Of a DNA stretch of 64,000 nt, positions 5,044 to 61,885 are shown one piece after another; position 1 is the first letter of the stretch, and each line of letters begins with the position of its first letter. The notes under the pieces were generated by a model. That model was not told where the DNA came from, made no database searches, and saw nothing but the letters and a program-made list of their open reading frames with translations. This stretch comes from Hysterium pulicare CBS 123377 (lineage: Eukaryota; Ascomycota; Dothideomycetes; Hysteriales; Hysteriaceae): positions 124,001 to 188,000 of the forward strand of contig AJFK01000112.1 of assembly GCA_000467715.1 (NCBI GenBank). Direction: 5' to 3'. Made by a program: the position numbers and the translations under genes.

Positions 5044-7377
5044 ATGGCTACCATCGTTGCGAGGGCGCCTCCCTTGCCAGCCCGGTCGTCCACACCTCCA
5101 CCACATCTTACTCTGAACACCTCTTCGAGAGGCACACCGGCAGCAGTACCAAATAAGCACATACCGGTCTGTTCGCCAGGCCCGGTACCGATCCGCGGCC
5201 TAGAGACTCCTCCGGCATCTCCACCGTCAAAGGATTGTCTAATCGAGACATCGTCGCTCATACACCCGCCAGAAGTGTACTGTACAGAATACTCGCGAGA
5301 TCCGCCTGTGTGGATGATAACAGGCCAAAGGTTAGCCGAGGCGTTAGAGCATATCTCGACCCAGCCACTGCCTTATCCCGAGCAGGTATTTCCATGGCTG
5401 CACGGACTCCATGCCGAAAACCAAATACAGTTGGCTTTCTTCGTCTCTCGGCGAAAGAGCATTCGGAAGGTTCCTAGATGCATCCGAGGCGTCACCATTG
5501 TTAAGACTGGCGGCGACCTATCCGTGTCAAAATTGAAGGGTGCCATTTCTCCTGAGGAACTACTTCAGATTAAACCTGCTTCCGAGGATTCCGGGGCTTT
5601 CCTCGAATGCGATCCGAGGGATGGGTTTTCCGTTCGTAATTTCCAGATCCAAGCGTGCAAGATGGCCATGATTTCGGACATTATCATCTACGGCGACGAG
5701 CAGACAGACCCGGGCGACACAATCGCACTTGCTAAACGGATATCTAAAGCACAAAGGGCGTACGAGATCAAAAACGGGTTTCAAAGAGGATTGTTCAATA
5801 CGTTTATGTTATCGGGTCAGTTCGCCTGTCGAAGAATGTTGGTCTATTTGCAACTGACCGTCCCAGAACCCTTTAGTCAGATCGAGAAGAACCATTCCAA
5901 CCTCATTGCCGTAGATTCTTCAGGATGCCTGACCGGAAAAGTAATGGATTTTTGTGAGTAATTAGGTCGAGACTATGGCGATTCAATACTTACTTTGGTA
6001 CAGTCTATTGGGAGCGGCTTGAGATGTGCGAAATGTCGAAAGCTTCTGAGATTAGCTCTAACGTATACCTTGGGCCTACTCCTGATCCATCTTTAGGTTC
6101 AGAATGCGCGAATGAACAGGATTTTGACGTCCTATTCGAAGCCAACGATTTGGCTCACATACCTGATGCCAGGTCACTCAAGAGTCTACGTGCCGGTTTA
6201 GCTGACGTCAACCACCAGCCTCTCCATATCGAATTCCCTTCGTCGGGTAGTATCATGCCCCCAACCTGGTCACATGCAGAAGTGGACGGTTTGATGGAGA
6301 CCCTTAGATGGATCTATGAAATAGCCAACCCCCAGGATGTCAACAAAGCAACGCAAAGGAAAGACATGGACGGTGATATCGAACTGGCAGATACTGCGAG
6401 ACCACAGAAGATTCTGATCCACTGTACCGATGGCTATACAGAATCCTCTCTGCTTGGCTTGGCTTATTTTATGTATGCCGAAGGGTTACCAGTACACGAC
6501 GCCTGGATACAGTTACACCGCGAAAAAGGACGGAATTTCTTCGCATACCCGACCGATGTCGCTCTCTTGACGGCTATTCAACCCCGCATTCTCCAGGAGT
6601 CTCCCCGTTGGGAAAGGGATGTTCTCAGGATCTCTGAACCGCAATGGCTATCTCGCATAGATGGCAGTCTACCTAGCAGGATTCTTCCGTATATGTATCT
6701 AGGCAACCTCGGTCATGCGAACAACCCAGAACTGCTTAAGGAATTGGGCATTACACGAATTCTCAGTGTCGGCGAAACGATTTCGTGGCAAGAAGATATG
6801 AAGAGAAAACTCAATTGGGCGGCAGAAAATCTAATGTCTGTTGATCGAGTTCAAGACAACGGAGTAGATCCCCTATGGGACGAATTTGATCGCTGTCTCA
6901 AGTTCATAGGTTGGCACTCCTTATGTCGTTGTCGACTCGGAATTTTTGCTAATATAAACTGAAAATATAGAGAGCGGTAAATTAGATGGCACAGCAACAC
7001 TTGTCCACTGCCGTGTCGGTGTGTCGCGCTCGGCCACGATTTGCATTGCGGAGGTCATGAACGAGTTGGGTTTGTCGTTCCCACGTGCCTAGTAAGTTTC
7101 CCTCTTCAAGTTGGCCAGCACCGTATCTGACCCCGGCGTAGTTGCTTTGTACGAGCTAGACGTCTCAATGTCATAATTCAACCTCATCTTAGATTTACGT
7201 AAGTCCGATCTCCCCAAGCTGCTACTGGGCTTTTGCACTGATATTGCCTGCAGATACGAACTTCTCAAATGGGAGGAGTATCAACGTCAAAAGCGCAACG
7301 AGGCTTTAAGCCGAGAACTCGAGTGGGCCACCATTGCGCGAGAGATAGCTCTCATGAACAAACCTTATTCGCGGTAG
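5044..7377 (+). CDS. PPS1: Dual-specificity protein phosphatase PPS1
   Basis: Five exons (5044-5953, 6004-6909, 6971-7091, 7142-7198, 7254-7377) encode 705 aa. In yeast, Pps1 dephosphorylates Tyr and Ser/Thr and acts around S phase. The C-terminal domain carries the active loop HCRVGVSRSA with catalytic Cys619 and Arg625, followed by FVRARRLNVIIQPHLRF. Upstream, residues 443-451 read HCTDGYTES, a second phosphatase-like loop in which the essential Arg is Glu. The N-terminal ~60 residues are Pro/Ser-rich and the middle matches only the Pps1 family. Introns are 50-61 nt and in phase at every join. It is convergent with the DUF3112 gene. Confidence 0.93.
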
Positions 7378-25926: not shown

Positions 25927-28900
25927 ATGCCTTCTAAATCCATACGCCCCACTCGCCGGGCAAAAAGCGATAAGTCTATCATGGGCGTGAGCGCATCTCA
26001 CCATCACCTTCCCACCTATGATGCTGAGTGTGGTGCAGACGAATGACAGCAGCATTGTTTCGAAACGGAGTGTCTCCAAGCTATATTACCCACTCGAGCC
26101 GGACTTCTATGAGCCCTTTGCATGCAAGTTCCAGAGAAGACATCCTCTCATCAACAGGGGCTATTGGCTTCGCATGCACCTTATTGAGCATGTTGTTCGC
26201 CAGTTTCTGGAGCAAGATGTAAAGACAGAAAAGGTGGTCGTCAATCTCGGCTGTGGATAGTGAGTAAGAAACCCCATCATCATCGTCTCTCGGCCAACCC
26301 CCTAAAGTAACTAGTGATCCCCTACCGTTCCAGTTTTGGCACAGGTATGCGTCGCTATGCGAACGCACTCTGTTCATCGACGTCGACTATCCGCAGCTGA
26401 TAGCGGAGAAGAAAGATCGCATTCTTTCTGCCAATCTGCTCGAAGCTACTGTTCGGCGACAAAATCTTACCACAGCCGATGTTCCCATTTTTCTTCGCTC
26501 TGAGAAATATGTTGCCCTCGGCTGTGATCTACGAGATCTCAAAACGCTCGAAAAGGTACTAAAAGAAGACCTGGCGATTACCTCTCAGCCGATACTCTTC
26601 ATTTCAGAGGTCTCCCTTACATATATGAAAATTGAGGAGTCTGACCCCTTGATACACTGGGCCAGCTCCTTTGACAATGGTGTGTTTCTCAATTTTGTAG
26701 CGTGACCGTCTAATATATCGCGTCTAGCATGCTTTTGCTTGTTAGAACAATGCCTTCCGAACGGCGTTGAGCATCCATTCGCACAAACCATGATCAAGCA
26801 TTTTGAAAAACTTCGTACCCCACTACAGGCAATAAAGACATACCCTCGAATTGATCAACAGAAATGTCGCTTTCTGAAGCTTGGTTGGTCTTCGGTCCAA
26901 ATCATTAGGACTCTGTGGGATATCTGGTTTGATCCGCAAATTGTAAGCCATGAGCAACGGCACTCCTTAGACGCTGTTGAGCCATTCGACGAGTGGGAAG
27001 AGTTTGCTTTATTCGCTGCTCACTACTTTCTTCTTGTCACAAAGAACGCTTGCGGTGAACGCCTCGACCACGCCGCGCCGAGAGCCGAGGATACTGTTTC
27101 AGAATGCAAACCAGATCTGACATTTCTAGAAAGTCAAGACATTGAAGCCGATCGCTTTTCCTTCCAGTCCCAAGGCGCATCATCAAATCTGCGACGATTT
27201 CCCGCCGCATTTGCATTGGGACGCAACGTTGTCGCTTTTCACGGGGGCCACGGCACGCAAACACGATTGAATTCAATCGACTTCTACATGAGAAGTGAAC
27301 CGAACAGACTGGTTGACAAATACCCATCCACACGGGCATATATGTGCCACACAATCACGGCTATCGACGAGGACAAAGCTCTTATGGTGGGTGGACGAGC
27401 GTCGCCAAATCAAGCATCCCCGGATTGCTGGTATCTGAATGGTGGAGCCTGGAACGCGGCACAGAATCTTGAGCCCGCACGCTTCAGACACTGTTCCGTG
27501 CGAGTCGGTCTATTCTGGAAGGGCACCTTTGCCAAGGCAATCCTTGTGTTTGGTGGTAAAACAAGCTCTGGAAAGGTCTTAGGAGAGTGGAGACTGTGGA
27601 TCTCAAATCATGGCTGGCAGAAAGTTCTTACCAAAGGCTCTTGTCCATCGCCAAGATTTGGTGCCGCTATGTCCACGCTGGGGAATTCAAATAATCGAGG
27701 GATTCTCATCGGAGGTATGTCGGCCGAGGGAATGATTTTATCTGACATGTGGGAATGGGAGTTGAGAGACGGTGAAATTATAACGATCACTTTCAAAAGC
27801 CGCATGAGCGATGTATCTCCGGACTATGCACGGTCAAGCTACCCGAGGATAGGCGCGTGTTTGCTAAAGCTGGAAGACGAGCTCCTCCTCTTAGGTGGGG
27901 TCACCGCCGGACGATTACCTAGCTCCACGGACGAAGTCCTACGTATTCGCTGTGGAAAAGTCGTCCATATCGAAAAAGTTCAGATTTCATGGTCTACTGG
28001 CCCACGCCCACTCTTTATCGGATTTGCAGCAGCCAACGTTTCCGACTGTGAGTTGCTTGTCGCCGGCGGCGGGGCAGTGTGCTTTTCGATGGGTAGTTAT
28101 TGGAATGAAGGCCACATTCGGATCAAGAAAGTCAACTCTCCCGCTGCTGACCCCTGGAGACTTATCATCGACCGTGGGCATTCCCTGTCGCAGCCATCGG
28201 CGCCGAAACAGTTATTCAGGGAAGCTTCTGATTTTTCTACTACGAATGATTTCCTGGGGGCAAAGCGTATTAGCCCAAAGATAGCGATAATTCCAAGGAT
28301 TTCGATACAAACAGGTGAACAATTTCTAGACATAGTTACTTCTTCACGACCGGCAATTCTAGAAGGACTTAACCTGGGTCCTTGCACGCATTTATGGACC
28401 ATGGATTATCTTCGAGAGCAAATCGGGCCGGATCGACCTGTAATAGTACATGTTTGTGATTCCGACAGAATGACTTTCACTGACAAGAACTTCGCCTATA
28501 TGAAAAAATCGTTTATGGACTTTATTGACGGAATATCTCAAGGCGACAAGTGGTATATGCGTTCAGTATCCGCGACACAGCCTACAAAACATGCCGCGAA
28601 ACTTGAAGATGATTTTCCCTCCATCGCCGCAGACTTCCAACTACCAGAAATACTCTCATTTGTGACTGAGAATATGCATAGTGCGCCTTTGCGGATATCT
28701 GGGCCTGTTTCACTTTGGCTGCACTACGACGTTCTGGCAAATGTCTTGTGTCAAATAAGGGGAACAAAAACACTCAGGCTCTTCCCGCCGTCAGACGTAG
28801 CCCATTTAGATTTCCCACCAGGTGGATCCAGCTCGAATGCCAACCTTTTAACGCTCGATAATCCCATTCTTTCCTATCTACATCCCCACGAAGCTGTACT

Positions 28901-29186
28901 CAAACCTGGAGATGTTCTATTCATCCCTCCCTTATGGTCGCACACTGCCACTCCAACCGATGGAGTAAGCGTAGCAGTGAATGTGTTTTTCCGGAACCTC
29001 CACAAGGGATATGCACCAGGGAGAGATGTATATGGAAATAGAGACCTCCAGGCATACGAAAACGGAAGAAGGGATGTTGAACGTATTGTGAAAGCTTTCA
29101 GTGAAGTACCGGTTGATATAAGTAAATTCTATCTTGAGAGACTGGTCGGCGAATTGAAGGAGAAGATCGGGAAACTTGGTTCTTGA
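25927..29186 (+). CDS. PPM2: tRNA wybutosine-synthesizing protein 4 (Ppm2/TYW4)
   Basis: Four exons (25927-25986, 26039-26259, 26315-26679, 26728-29186) encode 1034 aa. The enzyme methylates and methoxycarbonylates the wybutosine side chain on tRNA-Phe position 37. Three modules are seen. Residues ~25-340 form a leucine-carboxyl-methyltransferase-type SAM domain (SIVSKRSVSKLYYP, NLGCGYDPLPFQFW, ILFISEVSLTYM). Residues ~385-700 are Kelch blades with GG pairs (LVFGGKTSSGK, ILIGGMSAEG, LLLLGGVTAG). Residues ~750-1000 are a JmjC/cupin domain with HYDVLANVLCQIRGTK (His/Asp metal ligands) and FIPPLWSHTATP. The order matches fungal TYW4. It is convergent with DCL1. Confidence 0.95.
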
Positions 29187-29608: not shown

Positions 29609-32600
29609 TCATATCGCACTACCGACAGCCTCCTTCGTCCGCTTTTCGGCCGCCTCGGCATCCTCGACGTGATCTTCGCAGTCGCATTTATACAGCCGTC
29701 GAAACTCGTATTGGGGAAGCCCCTCGAGGAGATCTAAAGCCGCGTTACTGGCTTTGATGCGGGCGTATCGACCGGACACCGCGGTCCCGGATGCAACAAC
29801 TTCCCAATGCAGAAGGACCATTGCTACAACAGTTGGGCGAGCATGCGGTATAGTGGATTCGCATAGTCGTGTTGCAATCCTCCATTCGCGGCATCCTAAG
29901 TTGATGTTGAGCAACTTGGTGAGACGGGTCTAGTAAACGATTAGTCTTGAGCCAATGCCATATTGGAAGCAGATGACGTACGGTAGGATGGTTGTTTGCG
30001 AATGTATCGTAAATTGACATGTCTTCAAAGTATCTTCTGACGTGCAATTCAAAGAATCTCTGCACCTCGTTGAAATCAAAATCGGAGTCAACAAAAAGGG
30101 CAGCCACATAGGCTTCCACAACGTCCGCAAGACACTACGCAGTATTAGCAGGCTGAAATGAGTTCGGTGACAATACTTACTTTGGGAGGTTCGCTAACGG
30201 TCGTCCAATATTCAACAGATCCATTGGCCTCGCGCTCTGCTTCTCTGACCTCGGTCACGTACTCACTGATTTGATGATGTAGAACGGCGTTATTGTGACG
30301 AATGTGGCCGTGGAAATCCAGCTTGACGCATAGCGCTCCCAAAAATTTATTCGACACCATAGGCATCTTATGTTCCGTAAGCCACTGGGGATCCTTGTCC
30401 GGATAGCGGTAGAACAGATGCATGACGAAGACCATGTCGAGAAGGGAATCACCCAAAAATTCTAAGCGTTGATAATGAGGGATCTTCTCCCACATGAAAG
30501 ACTGCGATGGATGAATGAACGCAGATCGTAAAACTCGTGGGTAGCGGAAATGGTAGGGGTGCTGCTGCTCCACTTTCGCTGCGAGGTCAGTTTGTGAGGC
30601 TGTAGCCTCCCCGGTTTGGTATTTCGGCTTGGTGTACGCCTTGAGATAGTCCGCCCACGTCTCCATCGTATGATCGTCATTGGACACCATCACTTTGACA
30701 GCCTTGACCGCTTGGTCCCAATTTGTCGGATTGAAGACCCCGGGTTTGTTATGTTCCATGAATGCGGCCCCGATGAAAGCTTCGCACACGTCTGCGATAG
30801 ACTTGTCCCCCAAGGAGTGCTTGATCATCTGAACTCCTGTTTTCTTTGCACCCTTACCTTCAAGTAGCTTTAGACCCTCGGGATACCATGTCCGCCTAAT
30901 TTATGTCAGTAAGATAGTTTAGAGTGCAGTTGCTCACAACTTACCGAGAGAACGCCATGCTGCGGACAAATTCATATAACTTTAAATCGATCGCGCTCTT
31001 GAACAGATTCTTGTTGCAGAGCAGACACATCCGCCGGACGTGAAATTCAAACTCGTTGTCGTCTGGCCTCTGAACAAATACTGAGATCGAGGTTGCCATC
31101 TTCAGAAAGCAATCGCCCATGAACTCTAGACGTTCATAATTCGGACCCATGCCACTCCTCAAATTGATCTTCTCATCTCCATGTTCATCGCTGTTATCAG
31201 AGTCTTTGGTGAGAGCCTCTAAAGCAAGCGCTGGACCTATTCTAAGCCCTAATAGCTTGCAAGCATCTACAGCAATGAGATACGACTCGAGACGATGTAT
31301 TATCGCAGGGAAAACGTAGCACATGGCAACAAAATGGGTAGGAAGCTGTCGGGATATTAGTTACGAGAAATTGAAGATGCATCATAGACTTACGGCTGAA
31401 ATTCTGATTGGCTGTGGACATACGAAGCAGCGAGTTACACCAGCAAATTCATCAACCTCTACTGGCGCTAACAAGTTTCGTCTGAAAGGGACTTTCTCCA
31501 CTTCCACAACCGGTTGCGACAAATCCCATGTCCTCAATGCACGAGATTTATTCCAGAGACTTATAGAATAGTCAAGTATATTGGCCATGAACTTGTGCTT
31601 AGGAGCAGATGAGGGCACTGGATCTGTGGGGCTCAATCCCGGCGAGACTCCCACAGAGAAGAAACGTCTGCCTCCATCCCAGATGTCGACGAAGTAGCGA
31701 TCCGCAAGACTCTCATTCGTCATTTCTGGCGTCCACCTGTACTCTTCATGTGTAGAGATCTCGTGGATAACGTCCCAATCAATAATATCTGCCGGGTTGT
31801 CATTACCAGACGACGGTGGTGTGTGCCACTGGGTCAGTGGCGCTATCCAATAAGACATCTTTGAGGTATCATGCTCAAAGGTCTTGGCGAAGACATCTTT
31901 GTAGACGCGCAAAGTTACCGTCGTAAGTTGTTCAAGCATGTCCTCAGAGATGCGGAAAGGCGAGCTTAGGGAATTAGAAGTTACCTGAGTTGCTCTCCCG
32001 TCGTTGAGGTAGATGGGAAATCGTGGTATGTTTGGGAGGACTGATTTCGTAATGAAACCAATAGGCCGATATGGCCTGTCTAAACCCGCCGTTACATTAA
32101 AAATAGTAAGGTATAGTTCGTCAGTAGTTGTGCTCCGTCCGGACTTCCAAATTTCGGGTTTGAGACGCATCGGGTATAGATCTTTTTTCTTTACATCGAG
32201 TGCAAGGAGAGCATTTTGCATAGCAGGACGTTCTTTCGAGACTGTGGAAAGCAGATTCTTATCCAAATGCTCTTTCGATCTAAGCAAAATACATGCCTGG
32301 AAAGCTGCTGAGCGCTTGGCCACAGCCTTTTTAGTGGCCGGACGACCAAGGGCAGAGTGGACCGGAGAAGTCTCTGGAAGCGTGACCTCATACACGAATT
32401 TTCCAGCCTCGGCGACCACTAATTCGTAGCTCGGCTGAAGGAAAAACTCGCTGGGTTGCTGCAATGAGGAAACGTAGTGTGCTAAGACCCCTAGGCTCGA
32501 GCTGTAAGTCAACTTGGCGCCGCTTGACGGGTCGGTGTAAGTCGGGGTCTTTTCTGTCGAGAGCTCTAAGCCCATGTCTGCATCTGCGCCGAGAAGCAGA

Positions 32601-34534
32601 CGATCAGCTGGCAAGGTTTGACAAAACTCGCGCATGAGTTTCTCTGAGCTGCGGGCCTCGAATACCGCTTGTTGGTGGATTAGGTTGTCTTGCTCCATCA
32701 TGTGTAGGTACTTCGAGTTTCTGTGTCTCGCTCGGCCTCGTGATTGGATGTAGGAGATCATAGTCTTGTAAAGATCGAAACGGACGACAAGATTGCACTG
32801 TGGAATATCGAGTCCTTCTTCGGCCACAGAAGTAGAGAACATGCAATTGAGTTCCCCTCTTCTGAAATTTGCTACAGCCAAAACTTGGTTGCGCAGGGAT
32901 ATGTTCAGATCACTAATCGTGGAGTTCACACCTACGAGTATGCCGCTACGCAGATGAGGGCCACCAAGATGACTGAAGATCAGATGCAGGAGACGCGCCG
33001 TATGTCTACGTTGAACAAAAACTATGCATCTAGAATCTGAGACTCTACAGAAGTAACGTTGGAGCCACTCGTGAAGATGGAGGACTTTGTCGCTTAGATC
33101 GTGAGAGTTTGGCTCAGGCATTCCGAAATCGTGATCTCTGATAAAGTCGGCAGCTTCCCGTAAATGGGCTATCTCTTCGTCCAGCTTTGAGATCGGTCTG
33201 ACTTCTTTCTGGGCATGGAATTTCCGCTCTTCTCGCATCTCCATTTTCTGAGACTCTTCATCAGAAAGTGCATATGACCAGTATATATCGGATGCCCATC
33301 GGCCAAGTTCGGAACTGATTTGCTTCGACGCATCGAACAGTTTCTTGAAAGCCTCCAGGTTCCCGAAACGGGCTTTGAGTTCTTGATGCAAGGAGGTTTC
33401 GAACGGGGCTCTTAATCGGCGGTACGTGATGACTTGTTCCGATGGTCGAGAGATGTTGTTTCTCATTAGACTCAGGTCACTCGTTGTTGCAATCTTGCAA
33501 TGAAGAAGATTTTCTAATTCCCTACACAGTATTAGAGTGGTAATGGGCAATAGTTAGCCGACTCACCTTGCACCCAGTTGGACATCAACCTTTGCATCGA
33601 TAGGAGACGCTGTCATGCCAAATATTCTCGGTCGTTTGGACATATCTCCTTCGGCTTGGTAGTAGTCTTTGATAATCCTTAATGGTAGGCAGAATCAGTA
33701 CTGATACGCTAATTTGCAACACTCTTCACTCACCTTGCATATGAGTGGTTTTTCTTCGCGTGATGCGCCTCATCGAAGATGAGCAGATTGATCTTGTCGA
33801 TGCTAATGAATGAGTGCATGAGACATTGCACAAGAACCTCGGCGGTGCAGACGATAACCATATTGTTTCTGAAAAGCTTATCCCAAGTCTTCTTGGCCCA
33901 CAATTGGGTCCCCATTGCTCCACAAATCCCCTCGACGTTCTGATCAAGACCACATCTCAACACATTCGCCTGCTGGAAAACGAGATTGACAGAGTCGACC
34001 TGCGCACACGTTAGTGGTAAGATAATATAGCAATTGATCAAATCCCACCAGGAAAAATGAGATCCTCTGAGGTTGACCGGCTGCCCTTCGCTCCAGTTCT
34101 TGATCAATGACATGGCGAAGCAACAGTGTAGCAATGTGTGTCTTGCCAGAACCAGTATCTAAAACGGCAATGATGTTTTCGTCTTTGGCCTTCAGGAAAA
34201 GCTCTGTTTGATAATCCCTCGGGTTAGTAATGTGTGAACTAGCCTCTTGTTTGGCTAAGATGTCTTTGATTGACAATGTCTCATCGTCAGCACCTTGGAT
34301 AGCTTCTTTGACTTCTTGCTCTGTCATCTCTTCGGTCTTCTTGTTTGCCCAGGCTTTTAAGATCTCGTTCTGCGCCATTCGTTTCTCTGACGAAGTACGA
34401 GGGCCGTGTGGGTGGGCAATGTCCGTGTCAATCTCATCGTCATCAGGGTCAAGGTCAGACACGTCAGGTGTTTGTACATCGTCCAATTCTTCCTCGTCCT
34501 GGCGCAGAGTGGCCAGCTTGGAAGACCAGGCCAT
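29609..34534 (-). CDS. DCL1: Dicer-like protein 1 (DCL1)
   Basis: Eight exons (34534-34049, 33999-33734, 33677-33567, 33521-31394, 31345-30945, 30895-30181, 30134-29982, 29929-29609) give 1526 aa, a normal length for fungal DCL1. It cuts double-stranded RNA into siRNAs for RNA silencing. Domains in order: acidic N-terminus; helicase with [30 protein letters not shown] and [11 protein letters not shown]; dimerisation domain; PAZ-like region; RNase IIIa ([14 protein letters not shown], later [11 protein letters not shown]); RNase IIIb ([14 protein letters not shown], later [13 protein letters not shown]), so the acidic catalytic residues are kept in both; and a C-terminal dsRNA-binding domain with a Cys-His-Cys-Cys set (LGCREW, LLHWEV, YKCDCED). 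All introns are in phase. The gene looks intact. Confidence 0.95.
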
Positions 34535-34991: not shown

Positions 34992-36168
34992 ATGGATTCT
35001 CAACCCGACAGTATTCGCGGTCTGTTCGCCAGAGCGGAGGGAAAACGCCATGAGCTGGATTCGTCCTGGGATTCTAACAACGCCGCTTTCCAAGAAACTC
35101 TCGCCGCTGCTATTGCCACCTATGAAGAATGCTTGAGGCTGGCTGAACATGTCTCACTCTTCAGCCCAAATGAGGCTCTGGATGACATTGCGACGAGCGA
35201 TTTGCAGTAGGTGTTCCATGCAAGGTTCGCCATGGCTAGTCCTGAAGTCTCATCCGTCATAGGTACATGGCAATCAACTACCACCTTGCAGAGTTGGTAT
35301 TGAAAGTTACGGGAGGGGGACGCAAAACATATTTACAGCGTGCGAGAGATTGTTATGAACGATTCCTTAAACTTCTAGATTCGTACGATATTCTATCGAA
35401 GACTGATGCGACATTGCTGGAAACCTATCTAGAGAGTCGGGATTCGTTCTCTACGGCTTCCACCACAGATCCTGCTGCGCGGAGAGAAATGAAAATCGCT
35501 AGGTTTAGAGAGGAGAAAGATCTGAAGCGTAAACTTGAGGTTGGTACTTGCCATTCGTGAAGCAACACTTTCTAAGACCAGACTACATGCTTTAGTATCT
35601 TCGGCAAAACCCCCATGCGTTAGAAAGCGATGATCTGGCACTACGCCAACTTCACCTGACAAGCATCATGCTCCATGTTCTTCAGTGTTTTCAATCGTTG
35701 GAATCTATTGCACTTGAACTACAGATCCTAGCTCTGGCACCGCCACCTGTACCCCATTCCCCGAATGCCATTTCGGAAGATGTTCGCCAGAGGAACGGGG
35801 GAGCCCGCGAAGGATATTCGGAACGCCTTGACACGTCTTTATCGGGAACGATAAATGCGGGCCCTATTCTAAGTAGTGATGGTAAACCGCTTAGACCGTT
35901 TACTCTACTAGATACTCGACAAAGGTTGCAGCAGAGCGTATTTAGGCCCGATCACAGCTTGCCGACAATGACAATCGATGAGTATCTAGAGGAAGAAAGA
36001 CGAAGGGGCGGAATTATCGAAGGCGGTGGAGAGCAGTCTGGCATCAGACCAGAGCCGGACGAGGACGATTTGGAAAAGGCCGACGAAGAGACAATGAAAG
36101 CACGGGCATGGGATGAATTCAAAGAAGAGAACCCGAAGGGCTCAGGGAACACCCTGAACCGGGGTTGA
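34992..36168 (+). CDS. TAP42: PP2A-associated TOR signalling regulator Tap42 (alpha4/IGBP1)
   Basis: Three exons (34992-35206, 35263-35539, 35596-36168) give 354 aa. Tap42 binds PP2A-type catalytic subunits downstream of TORC1. The N-terminal two-thirds is the helical TPR-like domain (IATYEECLRLAEHVSLFS, YERFLKLLDSYDIL, REMKIARFREEKDLKRKLE, DLALRQLHLTSIMLHVLQ). The C-terminus has the conserved PTMTIDEYLEEERRRGGII and an acidic tail ending in the family-like AWDEFKEENPKGSGNTLNRG. Introns are 56 nt each and in frame. TSC1, another TOR-pathway gene, is 3 kb downstream. Confidence 0.95.
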
Positions 36169-54767: not shown

Positions 54768-55581
54768 ATGGTGCAACCAAGATCAAGCGCTCAGGCACCC
54801 TTTGCAGGGTATAGTCGATATACGACTCTTCCTCTCCCCGCTGACCGGAAAGGTCTCGGTGGAAAGGGCTTAGGGAAGGGTAAAGCCTTCAAGAGGCATC
54901 GGTCAGTCTACTACCCGCGCCACAATTTGTGTCTAATCTGGCTTGAACTTGCAGAAAACTCCTCAAAGACAACATTCGTGCTGTAACTAAAGGCGATATC
55001 CGGTATGAAGAATGACTTACTGTACACTTTCACTATTTCACTGCGCCTTCTCGCCATCAGTCGCAGTTCCCGAGAAGTCATCGAGCTAACCAATTGCTTA
55101 CCAGTCGTCTGGCTCGTCGCGGCGGTGTCAAACGCATTTCGGCTCAAATATACGATGAAACCAGGGCGGCATTGAAATCCCGGTTAGAGATTGTGAGTGA
55201 TCCATATAAAATAGTCAACATTGTCATTTGTCTAAATCTTCTGAAGCTGTTGAAGGAAATCACAGCTGTCGTAGGTACGTTATCAATCAAAACTGCGTCT
55301 CTGATCAATTGATTCTAATTGGCATTAAACAGAACACTGCGGCAGGAAGACAGTGTGCGTCACTGATGTAAGTTGACTCCATACAATTTCACTTGGGTAT
55401 TAGCTGATGTCTTTTCAGGTTGTTTTCATCTTGAACAGAGTAAGCAGAGTCTCTGTCATTAACCAGCTGTGGTGCTAACATTTGACAACTAGCTTGGCAG
55501 TCCACTCTACGTAAGTATCATCTCCCTCAATATCGCTACCTTTACTGATCTTCTCAGGGTTTCGGACCAGGAAGGAAATAA
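54768..55581 (+). CDS. Divergent, intron-rich histone H4 variant
   Basis: Eight exons are inferred (54768-54901, 54955-55002, 55105-55192, 55247-55274, 55333-55367, 55419-55439, 55493-55510, 55558-55581), giving 131 aa with an N-terminus longer than H4 (103 aa). The core aligns along its full length: GLGGKGLGKG, KRHRKLLKDNIRAVTKGDIR, RLARRGGVKRISAQIYDETR, LEILLKEITAVVEHCGRKTV, CVTDVVFILNRLGSPLYGFG. The tail lysines equivalent to K8, K12 and K16 remain. Divergence lies mainly in the second half of the fold. Neurospora and other ascomycetes carry such an H4 variant (hH4v) beside canonical H4. All seven introns have good ends and conserve phase. The start at 54768 is the first ATG in frame and could be wrong. 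Confidence 0.88.
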
Positions 55582-55982
55582 GGTAGCGGCAATGTCCAAT
55601 TCTTTATGTTGAATACCCTCGGCGTTTTGGTACGGTTTGAAAACTCATTTTGGTCAATGGTACTTCAGTCCTGTTGTGTCTGATGGAGACTTGGGGTGTG
55701 GTTCAAAGGTGTCAGTACTAAAATTGTGGGAGAAGTCTGATACCAATCATTGTGAAATGGCAAGAGTGAGCGAGGCGGGGACACGAGTTCATGATCATGT
55801 TTCAATTGAAAATGTCATAGGCGAATGGCAGGGGACCTTCTAGGCTTAGTGATTGGTATGCTCATGAGCCATGCGACCCCGAGCGCAGTAGTGTAATTCT
55901 CTTAAACTAGTTACTAGTCCTTTGTTGCCGTCAGGTTTCCATATCAATGCATCCTTTCCTCGCCCTTGGAGCCTGAAGAGCT
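55582..55982. other. Convergent intergenic region
   Basis: 401 bp between the H4 variant and the 2EXR-like gene. A 68-codon ORF at 55637-55843 has no recognisable domain. Nothing else is seen. Confidence 0.4.
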
Positions 55983-56981
55983 TCATGAAACCTGCCACTT
56001 CGTTAAGGAAAGCCTCATGCGCTCAACCTTGGCCTCCCACTTCTTGAGACCTGGAAGATCGTGCTTTGTGCGTAAGCTCTGCAGGTTTCCAAGCAGGTTG
56101 TGGGCCTCCCCTGCCATTGACTGTTTTTGTACTGGCGTGATCACAGCGTACCGTACACAATTTTTTTGAAATAAGCCTAGGGTTCGGCGCAACACCTCCA
56201 CGAAATCGGATGGTCCCAGGCGTTTCGTTGCACCGAGCCATATCCGGTATTCCACACCGTAGTTCCATCTAATATCGTGATGAATGGGTTTGGCACACCA
56301 TAGAAACCATTTTGAGAGGCGGTTGAGATGCAAAAAATTCTGCCTATGGCTATCGGGTACTTCATAAAAGTTCCCGAGAAGGCGACATTCCGACCAAGCA
56401 GCCTTGCCAGCTTCTGGATCATCAATCCATGGGCGTCTCCACCAGAAGGATGGTTGATCAACGAACTGGAGCTCAAGAATGATTCCGTGGTTTCGTTTTA
56501 GATGAACTTGATGAGCGGGCGGTACCATCTCAACCCATTGCATTACCTTGTCGAATGAATTGTCATAGATATACCCTGTGAAGCGGGTCTTGGCGTAGAA
56601 TTCATACGAAGCTTCGTGGCGTAGGAGGCGACAGACGCGAAGGAGGGGCGGCCACAAAGTTCTTGATTTTTGACATCCAGTGCGTAGGTCAGCGCGACGA
56701 TAGAATGGAGTGATGGGAACTACTGCATGTTGGGAAAGGACGAGCTCATATATCAGTATTCTGACCTCGGGAGGCAGCTTCGATAGATGGCATTGCTTGC
56801 CAGGAAGAGGTTTGATGGTCAGCGGTTTCTCTAGTCTGGTATTGAGTCTAAAAGGTACTGGAGGTGAGTCTGCGAGCGCAAGGTTGCGTCGGACCTTCGG
56901 AGATTCCTTCGACCGGGAGGAAGATGTTGAGCGAGCGAACGAGGGGGATTTGGTAGGGGTATGTGGCATAGAAACATTCAT
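55983..56981 (-). CDS. Hypothetical protein with 2EXR/F-box-like motif
   Basis: An uninterrupted frame gives 332 aa from the first ATG at 56981. A Ser-rich basic N-terminus (~60 residues) is followed by CHLSKLPPEVRILIYELVL, the 2EXR-type motif found in many expanded fungal families and thought to act like an F-box. Next come LWPPLLRVCRLLRHEASYEFY, also typical of the family, and a Trp-rich C-terminal half with no named domain. The role is unknown; substrate-adaptor function is inference from the motif. Its start codon is 214 bp from that of the divergent CCDC25 gene. Confidence 0.7.
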   Translation of the reverse strand: MNVSMPHTPTKSPSFARSTSSSRSKESPKVRRNLALADSPPVPFRLNTRLEKPLTIKPLPGKQCHLSKLPPEVRILIYELVLSQHAVVPITPFYRRADLRTGCQKSRTLWPPLLRVCRLLRHEASYEFYAKTRFTGYIYDNSFDKVMQWVEMVPPAHQVHLKRNHGIILELQFVDQPSFWWRRPWIDDPEAGKAAWSECRLLGNFYEVPDSHRQNFLHLNRLSKWFLWCAKPIHHDIRWNYGVEYRIWLGATKRLGPSDFVEVLRRTLGLFQKNCVRYAVITPVQKQSMAGEAHNLLGNLQSLRTKHDLPGLKKWEAKVERMRLSLTKWQVS

Positions 56982-57195
56982 TTTGATCTTCGCACTTGAA
57001 GTTTCTTTAGTTGAACATATTGTTGAGCATTTGGGGTGGAGTTTGGGGTGGAGATGTGGTAGACAGCACTCTTTCACAAAAGTTTTATCGATAAGCAAGC
57101 GGCTTCATGGCGGCAAGAAGTCAGCCCCACCAGAAAATAATCCAACCCAACAGCACTGCAAATTCCAATACCAAACACCTGAGATCTGCACAGAA
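56982..57195. promoter_or_regulatory. Very short divergent promoter, 2EXR-like gene / CCDC25
   Basis: Only 214 bp separate the two start codons, the tightest divergent pair in the window. A non-ATG in-frame extension of the minus-strand gene reaches 57098. No clear TATA box is seen. Confidence 0.4.
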
Positions 57196-58188
57196 ATGGT
57201 CTACTACTTCACCAGCAACGTAGTCAGTCCGTCTGCTTTCATATATGTTGGCAAAGATAAGGTAGAAAGTACGAGGGAATCTGTTCACATCGGCACGGCT
57301 ATGCACTGATTGTGAGGTCTCAGATGAAGAATTGATCAAATACGGTCTCGACGAGGATGTCTGGTAAACATGGATCCTAATTTTACGTTTAAAGCTTTGG
57401 CTCTGACAATGCGTTACGGCGTTATAGGGTACGTAGTCCTGGTAAAAGGACGGGCATCTTGCACAAATTCATTCGTGATAGTTTCACGTCGACAACCTCT
57501 CGAGTGCCCACATATATCTCCGCATGAACGAAGGGGAATCATGGGAGGGAATATCTGAGCAGCTTCTAGAAGATTGTGCACAATTAACAAAAGCAAATTC
57601 AATTGAAGGTCTAACAGATGCCACTTCATTCCTTTTACAGAGGCTAAATTCCTCGAAGGGAATAAAAAGGACAACATCACCATCGTCTACACGCCATGGT
57701 CGAACCTTAAAAAGGATGGAAGTATGGCCGTCGGTCAAGTGGGCTTCAAAGACCAAAGGAAAGTACGTGAGCCAGTTTTCAGCCTAATTCTACCCCTTGC
57801 AGCTTCTCTAACCCAAACGCAGGTCAAGCGAATGCACGTAGTCCAGCGTGAAAACCCGGTCGTCAATCGTCTCAACAAGACAAAGATCGAGAAATTTCCC
57901 GACTTGAGGCAGGAGAAGGAGGCTAGGCAGAAGGAGCTGAGGCAGCGAGATAGAGCAGCGCAGCAAGTCCGGGTAAGCTTTAAGCCACCTTTAAAAATAT
58001 GAGTATGTTAATGCCTCGAGCTGATTTTTGTTTTGCTGTAGCAAAAGGAAGAGGCCCGAATCGCGAAAGAGAGGAAGGAAAAGGCCTGGCAGAGGGATCA
58101 TGCGTACGATGATATGATGTCTGAGGAAAACTTGGCGGCATCAAGTAATCAAGATCGGGAACCGGACTTTCTTGATGACTTCATGTAA
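57196..58188 (+). CDS. CCDC25: CCDC25 homolog (NFACT-R / coiled-coil protein)
   Basis: Seven exons (57196-57261, 57317-57363, 57428 alone, 57482-57608, 57659-57762, 57823-57972, 58042-58188) give 213 aa; human CCDC25 has 208. The NFACT-R domain reads [95 protein letters not shown] charged coiled coil ([20 protein letters not shown]) and an acidic end DFLDDFM follow. The W-F join (TG|G|TTT) needs one extra G that no single GT-AG intron supplies. It is present as a lone base flanked by TTATAG and GTACGT. Related NFACT-R domains act in ribosome quality control; the fungal protein's role is not settled. Confidence 0.88.
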
Positions 58189-58548
58189 AAGGCAGAGCAT
58201 GTTCGCCTCTAAGCCAAGCCCACCATAGTACACTGACTCATGTCGCCCATTCATGTTATTTCGACCGCTACGGCATTCACCTGTAGCCAGGAATATGCTG
58301 ATCTTCTTCTATCGCCTTCATGGTGGATGCGAAGGGTTCGGAATATGCAAGCCATTATTTGCGCCCCATTCGGCTTTGATCAATAGATGTCGGGTCGGAC
58401 GTTTGAGATAGGAAGGCACATCCCCATGCTCTCATTGAGCATTCGAATGTTATGCTGAAAGGCATCGTAGGATGTGATCCTCATTTGAATCTCTTCATTC
58501 TTCCTGACTCATGTCAATCAACCGGCTCTATTAAAGAATAATCGATTG
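58189..58548. other. Convergent intergenic region
   Basis: 360 bp between the CCDC25 and DUF1763-type stop codons. No ORF or element is recognised; likely 3' UTRs. Confidence 0.4.
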
Positions 58549-58836
58549 CTACGCGTACGCTTTGGACTTGACTACTCTCGTGGGACTACTCTGGTGGTAC
58601 CACACCAGGAGGATATTTTTCAAAACTCTGTGCTCCAATCCCTTCACCCGAGCAGCACCCTCAAGAAATTCTAGGGTATTTTCGACCTTTTGTTGATCAA
58701 AGTCCGCCACGTTCCCTTTTCGAAAAGCAAGTCGTAAACGATCCCGAAGCGTGAATCGGGCTGGTTTCGAGAATTGGATCGCTCGTAGGCCTTGACGATA
58801 TAAGTGACGATAAGAGCGTATGATGTCGGCGGACAT
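58549..58836 (-). CDS. Small LYR-type protein, DUF1763-like
   Basis: A single exon gives 95 aa from ATG 58836. The protein is basic with SADIIRSYRHLYRQGLRAIQ at its start, where HLYRQ fits the LYR motif of mitochondrial assembly factors. PARFTLRDRLRLAFRKG (with a downstream acidic-basic helix) and NTLEFLEGAARVKGLEHRVL follow. I recognise it as the fungal DUF1763-type family. LYR proteins generally bind acyl-carrier protein and help build respiratory complexes or Fe-S proteins; that role here is inference. The frame continues upstream to 58998 without improving the match, so the LYR-proximal Met is preferred. Confidence 0.75.
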   Translation of the reverse strand: MSADIIRSYRHLYRQGLRAIQFSKPARFTLRDRLRLAFRKGNVADFDQQKVENTLEFLEGAARVKGLEHRVLKNILLVWYHQSSPTRVVKSKAYA

Positions 58837-59208
58837 GGGAGAAAAAATGGCTTGAGTGTGATGGCCAAAGGCAAGGCTTAGGAATACACTTGGGGATTCG
58901 TAGATGGTTTGATGACCACGTGCCTCGGTAGAACCGGTTGGAACCTTGGCATGGCCCAGCCGCGCTACTTTTAAGCGCTTGCTCTTCACCTCCAACACTC
59001 AACAACTGAACTTCCATCAAGTCTTAGCTGCAACCCGCATCGCGGACTGTAGCCCCTAGAGCAAATCTTGTGGATTCAGATTCAACGCTGAACATGCTCT
59101 ATAGGAGTTGTTGACTGCTAACTGCTTAGGCTTTCTTCCCTTTGTCTTCTCCAGTCGGGTTTTTCTTTACAATCAGGCGTCGTCCCATGACAGTGACGCA
59201 AAGACAGC
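58837..59208. promoter_or_regulatory. Shared divergent promoter, DUF1763 / DUF2293 genes
   Basis: 372 bp between start codons. The in-frame upstream extension of the DUF1763 frame covers part of it. No motif is assigned. Confidence 0.4.
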
Positions 59209-61885
59209 ATGACCAGAGTCCATCATCATTCGCACGTCGGGCTGACAAAATCATCCCTGTATCGTGCCAGAGTCGCGCGGAAGAAAAAGCCATATAAAAT
59301 CCTTCTGGAGTCCGTTACGCAGGAAAAGAAGAAACTGCATTCCGCCGTCCGTTGCTCTCTCGTGTCGAGTGACGAACTAAAGCACTGACACTTTGTCTAG
59401 ATTTCGTACGATGCACACGCCCCGGTCGGGTATACCTTTGTGCCCGCCGGGACTCCAGAGCTTACAGACTATTGCAAAGAGCTCTGTAGAAAACGAGGGC
59501 TCATTGCACATATTGTTTCGGTCAGACTTGTTGCGCTTGTTACGATTACCGGAAACTAACGAAGCTTGTAGGCCAAGCCCAAGAATAGGGCTCATGCGAA
59601 TCCGGACAAGATAGCCCATCATGTTCATCGTATTGGACACCATTTCCCAAATGAGGTTGTTGATCAAGCTTGTGATTGGCTTGGTTACGTTTATCGTGGC
59701 GGTATCTACCAGAAAACCATGAACAATTTGGGCACGGATGTCTTTGCACGCAGCCTTGCTACTCATGGAAGCAGATTGGGTCTCCACGATCGCCCCGTTA
59801 CCGTTCAAGAAACCAGCCAGCAAATCAAGGCAGCTATACTCGACCTATTTCCCAAGATTCCTGACAAAGACGCAGAAGCTATTGTCAAACATGCGTTTCG
59901 AGAAGTATCTAGCCGCTCTTCTTCCCCAGGCTATGGTGTGGTACTGATTCTCTTCTAGGGTACCAAGAGGGTAGGTAATGCGCAAGAACTACCTTTGCCA
60001 CGACGAGTCCAGCTTGCAGTGGTTGCCCATATCCGCCACGAGTACACAGATTATGACCAGCTTTTGAAGACGGGATCTTGGATGGATGCCAGACAAAAGG
60101 TCGAGGAAGCTTCGCTTGATCAGCTGCGGAGATGGCGTGGCGAGAATGAGACTGGAATTATAGAGATGGAGGAAACATTTCGTGAGGTCATTGTGCTGGA
60201 CGACGATGAAGATGACGGAGAGGATAGCAGTGAAGAGCAGTCCAGCACCGACGATGGAGAGCGAAGCATCGAGATATTCTCGAGCCAGGCAGCTGCTCAC
60301 GAACTTCAACCAGATGATGCACATGATGCCGAATGGACTGATATGCACAGCACGAATCGTGCACCTGGCAAGGTATATTTCGTAAGACCTGCACCTCGAC
60401 GGACTCGTGTCGTCCAACCTCGATCTGCTGCGGTGTATTCCAACCCACGCACGGCGCCCACTCTTGTCACAGCACCTCGTTTCAGAAAGGAGCCAGCTTC
60501 GCTCAGCTATAGCCAAGCACATTCAAGACCCGTTCGCCATCTCCTTCCGCCCGTGCCAACTGCAAGTTATAGGCGCGAGGTGCATCATGAGCGCGATGAC
60601 CGTCGACTCGTGCTCGAGACGTAAGGAGAGATGGTATTCTCGCATAGTCCAACCTGCTCATATTGAATAGGGCTCCGAAAACCCCATTCACTCCATCTGC
60701 ACTTGATCAACCTTTGCGATATTGCGATGAACACGGAAGGCTCTACAATGTGAGTGTTCCCGGATCATTGCCCTTAACTGACTTGATATGTCTTGCATGG
60801 CTGGTTTCCGCCACAATATATTCATACCCGATATCGACTTGCGTATATCCACACTATATCTTTAACCCAGGCGAACATAAAAGGTAGTAGTCTTGTCATG
60901 GTCACCGAATCGTTTAGTCTTTGACGCGAAACTGGCTGTGCAAGACATAGCACTTCCGAAATTTCTAAGTCAAGGGCGCTGACTTAGCTAGCTACAACGC
61001 ATTGATGACAGTTCATCCACGCCGCCGAATCACAGCTCAAATTACTTACGAGCTACAGAGGCTGTTCATCATACCCACTTACCACAAAAAGCCCCTTTCC
61101 AAAAGCATGCTCCGCTACATGACCGCAGAGATTTTCTCCCTCCCCCCATTCCAATAGCCCTGACAAACAGAGACCGCCAGCCGATAAGGTATGTGCATAG
61201 TAGAGAACATACAGTTCAGGAAAGCGATGTCGCAATCCCATCGATAGAGCGGGATATTCCCGAGCCTGCTGAATTGTCTTCCATGCGGAATCTTGACATT
61301 GCACAAAGATCACACGATGATCGTGCATCGGGCTTGATTGACCCTAACGCATTATATCGAGGTCAGATGCTACAAGGACAAGTCCAGAATGAACGCCACC
61401 AATTTGCAAAGCGCAAGTCGTGGCCTTCTCCCCGACGTGATATTCCACATGATCTGGAGCCTTGTGTGCCCAAAAGACAGAAGGTCATCCGCGATCAAAT
61501 GCAATATACGAACGACGGCAGGTTTCAGGACTCACGACAAACAGATGTGATTGACCTTACATCCAGCCCACGGAAACCACTTGGCTACGTGTCGCAAGCG
61601 TCATATCCTTCAGAAGAGCCACAGCCACAGCCATCAACATCAAGATTTCGTTCTGCTTTCGATCGGAGTCAACCGATATACAATCAGAGCGCATACGCAC
61701 AGCTAGAGCGGTCCCCCTCGATTCCTCGGGCAGATGAGCGTTTCTTCATTACCGAAAATGAGCATGTTGACTCCAGTGCGAATTGGCGGCACGCTAACCA
61801 AGATGGCCTGAATGATCAGTATCAAAGCCGAGCGATCAAGCGATATGTCCCACAGAATCAAATTGTGGATTTATCCTACTCCTGA
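59209..61885 (+). CDS. DUF2293-family protein with SUMO-interaction-like motif
   Basis: Supported exons are 59209-59346, 59401-59520, 59572-59904, 59959-60620, 60671-60749 and a final exon from about 61220 to 61885 (665 aa if these join directly). The N-terminal part is the DUF2293 domain: SLYRARVARKKKPYKILLES, GYTFVPAGTPELTDYCKELC, AHANPDKIAHHVHRIGHHFP and VVDQACDWLGYVYRGGIYQ. An acidic segment (VIVLDDDEDDGEDSSEE) follows, then a long Arg/Pro/Ser-rich tail. Near the end, QTDVIDLTSSP has the shape of a SUMO-interaction motif. The 470-nt gap 60750-61219 is long for this genome and may hide another exon, so the C-terminal join is provisional. No biochemical function is known. Confidence 0.75.

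Follow-up and report, generated by a model that had tools for sequence, protein, structure and literature searches.

The locus described here raises the question of whether a conserved gene of Hysterium pulicare contains a coding exon of a single nucleotide. The gene lies in a window of 64,000 nt (the whole stretch of DNA that was analysed), which covers positions 124001-188000 of contig C94. The draft genome amounts to 37.2 Mb, distributed over 596 contigs. An earlier reading of this window, made from the sequence alone and referred to below as the sequence-only reading, had assigned the gene to CCDC25 and had proposed that the interval from 57364 to 57481 contains either two introns around a lone G or a recursive splice site. 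The letters and coordinates on which this proposal was built were exact: TG ends at 57363, GTAAAC begins at 57364, TTATAG ends at 57427, the G is at 57428, GTACGT begins at 57429, GATAG ends at 57481 and the next exon opens with TTTCACGTC at 57482.

The CCDC25 orthologue was rebuilt from the sequence between 57196 and 58188 on the forward strand as seven coding pieces, one of them the single G (Table 1). With this G included, the coding sequence is 642 nt long (213 codons and a stop), and the 213-aa product contains a full-length NFACT-R_1 domain (114.9 bits, profile positions 1 to 112 of 112) above the curated cut-off of 29.8. Three solved CCDC25 chains matched the product, with E values of 3.8e-60, 5.2e-60 and 6.4e-60. 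Residues 1 to 179, starting from Met1, were colinear with chain 7eof_B (Coiled-coil domain-containing protein 25; E value of 3.8e-60), which we take to be the human protein. The VWFHVD region of the product faces EDIWFHVDKLSSAH in the solved chain without a gap, and the solved CCDC25 chains have the same Trp in this motif. The assignment to CCDC25 was, therefore, borne out by both the full domain and the colinear match. The stated length of 642 nt for the coding sequence was also correct, and within the domain part the alignment is interrupted just once, by a single-residue gap near residue 15.

A genome search detected the CCDC25 locus once. A domain search of the genome detected two genes with an NFACT-R domain, namely, the CCDC25 orthologue and a gene on another contig (C112:23303-23611; 113.7 bits for NFACT-R_1, in a 584-aa open frame), which probably encodes an Rqc2/NEMF-type protein. 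As placed by eye, this second gene has DIYVHAD where the CCDC25 orthologue has DVWFHVD; hence, the Trp is common to the solved CCDC25 chains but not invariant in the whole domain family.

Table 1. Proposed structure of the CCDC25 orthologue. Positions are those of the window; percentiles refer to the 78 confident introns of the gene-finder run described in the text.
Feature	Positions	Strand	Length (nt)	Remarks
Exon 1	57196-57268	+		Start codon at 57196, MVYYFTS...; aligns to solved CCDC25 chains from Met1 onward
Intron 1	57269-57323	+	55	GTACGA..CTCAG; joins DKVE-N-EELIKYG, facing DKYENEDLIKHG; same choice by gene finder
Exon 2	57324-57363	+	40	Ends ..GTC TG, with TG as bases 1 and 2 of the Trp codon
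Intron 2a (predicted)	57364-57427	+	64	GTAAAC..TTATAG; donor at 54th and acceptor at 14th percentile
One-nucleotide exon, G (predicted)	57428-57428	+	1	Third base of Trp codon TGG; based on DEDVWFHVD and choice by gene finder
Intron 2b (predicted)	57429-57481	+	53	GTACGT..GATAG; donor at 86th and acceptor at 15th percentile
Exon 3	57482-57608	+		Starts TTTCACGTC (TTT CAC...), ends ...SIEG; aligns to CCDC25 chains
Intron 3	57609-57658	+	50	GTCTAA..CGAAG, weak donor; ANSIEGNKKDN faces ANSIQGCKMNN ungapped; gene finder preferred donor 57576
Exon 4	57659-57762	+		Aligns to CCDC25 chains
Intron 4	57763-57822	+	60	Rebuilt gene and gene finder
Exon 5	57823-57972	+		Aligns to CCDC25 chains
Intron 5	57973-58041	+	69	Rebuilt gene and gene finder
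Exon 6	58042-58188	+		Ends with stop TAA

The donor of intron 3 is at the 5th percentile of the confident introns. Two in-frame acceptors are available to this intron, at 57640 and 57658 (18 nt apart), and the family favours the longer form. A 32-nt intron (57609-57640) was considered; it preserves the reading frame, but its product would carry six residues that the family lacks, and the 50-nt version was adopted. Use of acceptor 57640 may nevertheless give rise to an isoform with these six additional residues. A 2EXR domain is encoded by an open frame (55983-57098, reverse strand) divergent to CCDC25 and upstream of it. This frame opens at a TTG, with about 100 nt between it and the start codon of CCDC25, and a promoter region shared by the two is possible. 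Elsewhere in the window, part of a Dicer-like protein is encoded by a 722-aa open frame (31385-33550, reverse strand) with helicase C, Dicer dimerisation and platform domains. An 815-aa open frame (26739-29183, forward strand) combines Kelch repeats with a Cupin_8/JmjC domain and represents either a fusion or two genes without an intervening stop. A scan of the 64,000-nt window found no Rfam families at the gathering threshold and no tRNAs.

Positions 57422 to 57434 read TTATAG-G-GTACGT, in which exactly one base separates the AG from the GT, both of them canonical. Retention of this G between the two GT-AG introns restores TGG|TTT (Trp-Phe). The sequence-only reading had stated that a single GT-AG intron would join TG to TTT and destroy the frame, and this was the case: without the G, the frame is lost after DEDV and a stop is reached at 52 aa. 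The frame-broken 52-aa product scored 28.3 bits for NFACT-R_1, below the cut-off. If intron 2b is kept, a 70-aa product results, and if intron 2a is kept, a stop follows right after the Trp.

Alternative joins between exons 2 and 3 were enumerated, allowing GT-AG introns of at least 30 nt and a middle exon of 1 to 60 nt, with the other exons fixed and an open frame to the natural stop. A total of 145 in-frame joins were listed (8 with a single intron and 137 with two). Only one of these listed joins gave DEDVWFHVD, and this was the arrangement of the sequence-only reading, with introns of 64 and 53 nt around a 1-nt exon. Its splice score of -1.48 was also the best, the next double-intron join having a score of -5.95. 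The best single introns were 57364-57504, in which WFHVDNLSS is replaced by Cys (-7.61), and 57359-57481, in which Val-Trp is deleted (-8.42), while a plain 118-nt intron scored -5.75 with the frame broken. The acceptors flanking the G are both below average (Table 1). Lengths of 64 and 53 nt are within the normal range for this genome (median of 58.5 nt and 5 to 95% range of 46 to 93 nt for the 78 confident introns), and introns of at least 110 nt are found once among the confident set and five times among all 190 predicted introns. CCDC25 seems to be correctly read only with a one-base coding segment. Very probably, the interval consists of two ordinary short spliceosomal introns around a one-nucleotide exon, G 57428, which supplies the third base of the conserved NFACT-R Trp codon.

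A gene finder that made no use of homology was trained on 264 kb of the genome, namely, the window plus stretches of four contigs totalling 200 kb. The run used had an intron penalty of -5, a value settled on after seeing the runs, and yielded 80 genes and 190 introns, 78 of which had coding sequence on both sides and were termed confident. A branch-like CTRAY was present in 44 of the 78 confident introns, compared to 7 of the 78 reverse complements and 11 of the 78 reversed sequences. This run picked introns 57364-57427 and 57429-57481 and, hence, the 1-nt exon. Nine of the 126 predicted internal exons were of 15 nt or less, and the only one of 1 nt was G 57428. The eight others, of 4 to 15 nt (window positions 7193-7198 and 35932-35937 and other stretches of the genome), may be false. 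Two errors were made by the finder in the CCDC25 gene, with donor 57576 being chosen for 57609 and the start being placed too far upstream, at 56815. An earlier run that had been set aside (introns were too cheap and genes were merged) likewise placed both introns. In a self-training run at -7, no gene was reported across the site of the 1-nt exon, and there were at most 40 confident introns, too few to retrain the splice models.

The finder was also run in a held-out form. Here, none of the genes in 55000-60000 contributed to the coding, splice-site or length models (78 of the 80 genes and 73 of the 78 introns remained), and the background model was kept as before. The 1-nt exon survived at penalties of -3, -4, -5 and -6; at -7 and -8, the finder omitted it and truncated the gene at its front instead. 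Blocking of the inner donor at a penalty of -5 left exons 2 and 3 unconnected and lowered the total score from 20.74 to 17.23. Without homology, the preference of the finder for the 1-nt exon is modest. For RPL3, a gene outside the training DNA, four predicted introns led to a gap-free match to 7r81 (presumably from Neurospora crassa), with 346 of 347 aa aligned; the model was wrong upstream of the compared part. Among the 16 chains listed for this part of RPL3, 7r81 (696.8 bits), 7olc (683.8 bits; presumably from Chaetomium thermophilum) and 8oo0 (682.3 bits) were the closest, the other 13 reaching 597.9 bits at most. These matches point to a filamentous ascomycete (Pezizomycotina) as the likely source, and the neighbouring 2EXR-domain gene is in keeping with this.

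Chance expectation was estimated using splice models from which the CCDC25 introns had been removed, leaving 74 introns. The inner part of 57364-57481 was shuffled 20,000 times with dinucleotides kept, both introns having to fall within the 95% length range (44 to 99 nt), and the rates count AG-N-GT with any middle base rather than G alone. A 1-nt exon with both sites as strong as those observed was present in 0.05% of the shuffles. The proportion increased to 0.275% for a summed site score as high as that observed, to 1.9% for sites above the 5th percentile of the genome and to 8.4% for sites of any score. Among 5,888 real pieces of the genome (103 nt, overlapping, from both strands and outside predicted genes), the numbers for the same four criteria, strictest first, were 2, 7, 71 and 578. 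When exons of 1, 4, 7, 10 or 13 nt were allowed (10,000 shuffles), the rates in the same order were 0.08%, 0.6%, 5.3% and 25%. Where the sites are required to be good or typical, the chance of a 1-nt exon arising at random is about 0.05 to 2%, depending on the criterion, and an AG-N-GT of any strength at a fitting spacing is not rare.

The main rival to a one-nucleotide exon is a one-base assembly error or a true frameshift. According to this explanation, 57364-57481 is a single intron of 118 nt, a G has been lost from the flanking exon (either erroneously in the assembly or through a genuine one-base loss in a recent pseudogene) and the inner AG-G-GT is due to chance. The break in the frame would be accounted for if the exon border differed by one base, and an assembly of 596 contigs is a draft; however, an intron of 118 nt exceeds nearly all of those predicted (at least 110 nt in 1 of 78 and 5 of 190, as given above), and a motif of this strength at normal spacing occurred in only 0.05 to 0.28% of shuffles. 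Moreover, the remainder of the 213-codon frame is open and the base situated between the introns is exactly the one needed by the Trp codon. We regard a lost or missed base as an unlikely explanation.

The frame could also be kept by one intron running from an upstream donor at 57359 (GAT|GTCTGG) to 57481, with an in-frame deletion of Val-Trp (..LDED-FHVD..). The result is an open frame of 211 aa and the intron has GT-AG ends, but it would be 123 nt long, would remove the Trp found identically in those solved chains of CCDC25 and has a splice score of -8.42 as against -1.48, and we give this possibility very little weight. Lastly, the interval could be a stwintron or a zero-nucleotide recursive splice site, with nested introns being removed in two steps and nothing being retained. 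Stwintrons have been described in ascomycete fungi (PMC12403724, PMC8469720, PMC6616335) and the splice sites of the interval stand in the right order, but full removal leaves TG+TTT with a broken frame and the base after the inner AG is a G, rendering this reading highly improbable. The specific form [D1,2], in which bases 1 and 2 of the external donor are separated by the inner intron and full removal keeps the frame, was rejected on both of these points, and the zero-nucleotide recursive site was rejected on the grounds that the frame is broken once nothing is retained.

In the arrangement with a one-nucleotide exon, the AG of intron 2a occupies positions -3/-2 of the donor of intron 2b, and the two splice sites overlap. 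Positions -3/-2 of a donor lie within the stretch contacted by U1 snRNA. As the AG of intron 2a sits inside this stretch, both sites could hardly be occupied at once, and the introns would, therefore, be removed successively by intron definition. Removal of intron 2a first would produce TGG|GTACGT, a usable donor for intron 2b. The opposite order would also be workable, with prior removal of intron 2b leaving TTATAG|GTTTC. Intron 2a may be the first to go because it has the better branch candidate, a CTGAC with the A located 21 nt from the intron end, compared to a weak TTCAT at 10 nt from the end of intron 2b. The spliced junction, with the G retained, would read ..GATGTCTGG TTTCACGTC.. in the mRNA. 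Skipping of the G or retention of intron 2a or 2b gives early stops, and splicing errors would produce possible targets of decay. The suggestion of a recursive splice site in the sequence-only reading was, thus, correct in part: the sites overlap and stepwise removal is likely, but one base must stay in the mRNA, unlike the situation at a zero-nucleotide site. With its overlapping 3' and 5' splice sites, the 118-nt interval would, if the exon is confirmed in RNA, constitute a compact natural substrate for spliceosome tests on sites that cannot be occupied together.

Searches for related copies were performed with regard to the origin of this arrangement. No introner-like copies of the 118-nt stretch were found in the genome, the self-match being the only hit at an E value of ≤1. 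The likeness between introns 2a and 2b was no more than that expected by chance, with 513 of 1,000 shuffles scoring as high. With no second genomic copy and no likeness of introns 2a and 2b beyond chance, neither introner spread nor tandem duplication was seen. The 12-mer TATAGGGTACGT has one further occurrence in the genome, at C301:7149-7160. Searches for orthologous loci produced 4 pattern matches in viral contigs and 58 in contigs of prokaryotic genomes, none of which was confirmed. Rescue of a lost exon base by a cryptic AGGGT within an intron has been suggested by Nelson and Syed (PMC12940212). The normal lengths of both halves fit equally well with gain of a second intron one base away from an older intron.

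The sequence strongly supports the CCDC25 case as being a further instance of a known but very rare structure, the one-base exon. No published one-base exon of CCDC25 was found in the literature, as searched by title and the opening of the abstract. If confirmed in RNA, this would be, as far as the literature searched shows, the second fungal nuclear gene with a one-base exon, unrelated to the first. The gene concerned is conserved from fungi to animals, and annotation that disallows a one-base exon can break such a conserved gene. It is conceivable, although we consider it somewhat doubtful, that the AG-G-GT arrangement recurs among filamentous ascomycetes. The single base would double as the preferred first exon base after an acceptor and the preferred last base before a donor, the overlapping sites would impose a strict order, missed steps would lead to an early stop and CCDC25 output would depend on the efficiency of two-step splicing. 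If this is true, the independent occurrences in Fusarium CYP621A and in CCDC25 would indicate that fungal 1-nt exons are not unique accidents but are under-annotated.

Nuclear one-base exons have been reported in print for plant APC11 (PMC4674806), plant VPS55 (PMC8831610) and Fusarium CYP621A (PMC12940212), the last of which was termed the first in a fungal gene by its authors. The sequence-only reading had referred to very rare precedents in plants; APC11 and VPS55 are indeed such cases, but the Fusarium gene extends the list beyond plants. One-base exons between two introns are also described in mitochondria, in placozoan cox1 (PMC5436844) and at Ophiostoma rnl-576/577 (PMC12308204), but these cases are organellar and not spliceosomal, involving group II introns in Ophiostoma. 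The stwintrons of ascomycetes share with CCDC25 the presence of neighbouring U2-type introns and consecutive removal (as proposed here), but differ in that a splice signal of the external intron is interrupted by the internal one and no base is retained (PMC12403724, PMC8469720). In plant APC11 and VPS55, as proposed for CCDC25, a one-nucleotide nuclear exon between two introns restores the frame (PMC4674806, PMC8831610). The Arabidopsis APC11 exon differs in being an A within a 422-nt stretch, and the plant APC11 exon was demonstrated by cDNA and reporter constructs (PMC4674806). The VPS55 exon was demonstrated by RNA-seq and RT-PCR and is alternative in some species (PMC8831610).

Fusarium CYP621A (PMC12940212) is an unrelated gene, in which the G stands in the middle of a Gly codon rather than at the end of a Trp codon as in CCDC25. 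The CYP621A exon is documented in 20 Fusarium orthologues (24 sequences) and by 18 RNA reads from two species, whereas the CCDC25 exon is predicted from the sequence. Both are nuclear genes of filamentous ascomycetes with an AGGGT core and a G exon (predicted in CCDC25), and in both the interval is about twice the length of a normal intron (139 nt in F. graminearum and 118 nt here). In CYP621A, as in CCDC25, the single base falls within a conserved protein motif and is needed for the reading frame.
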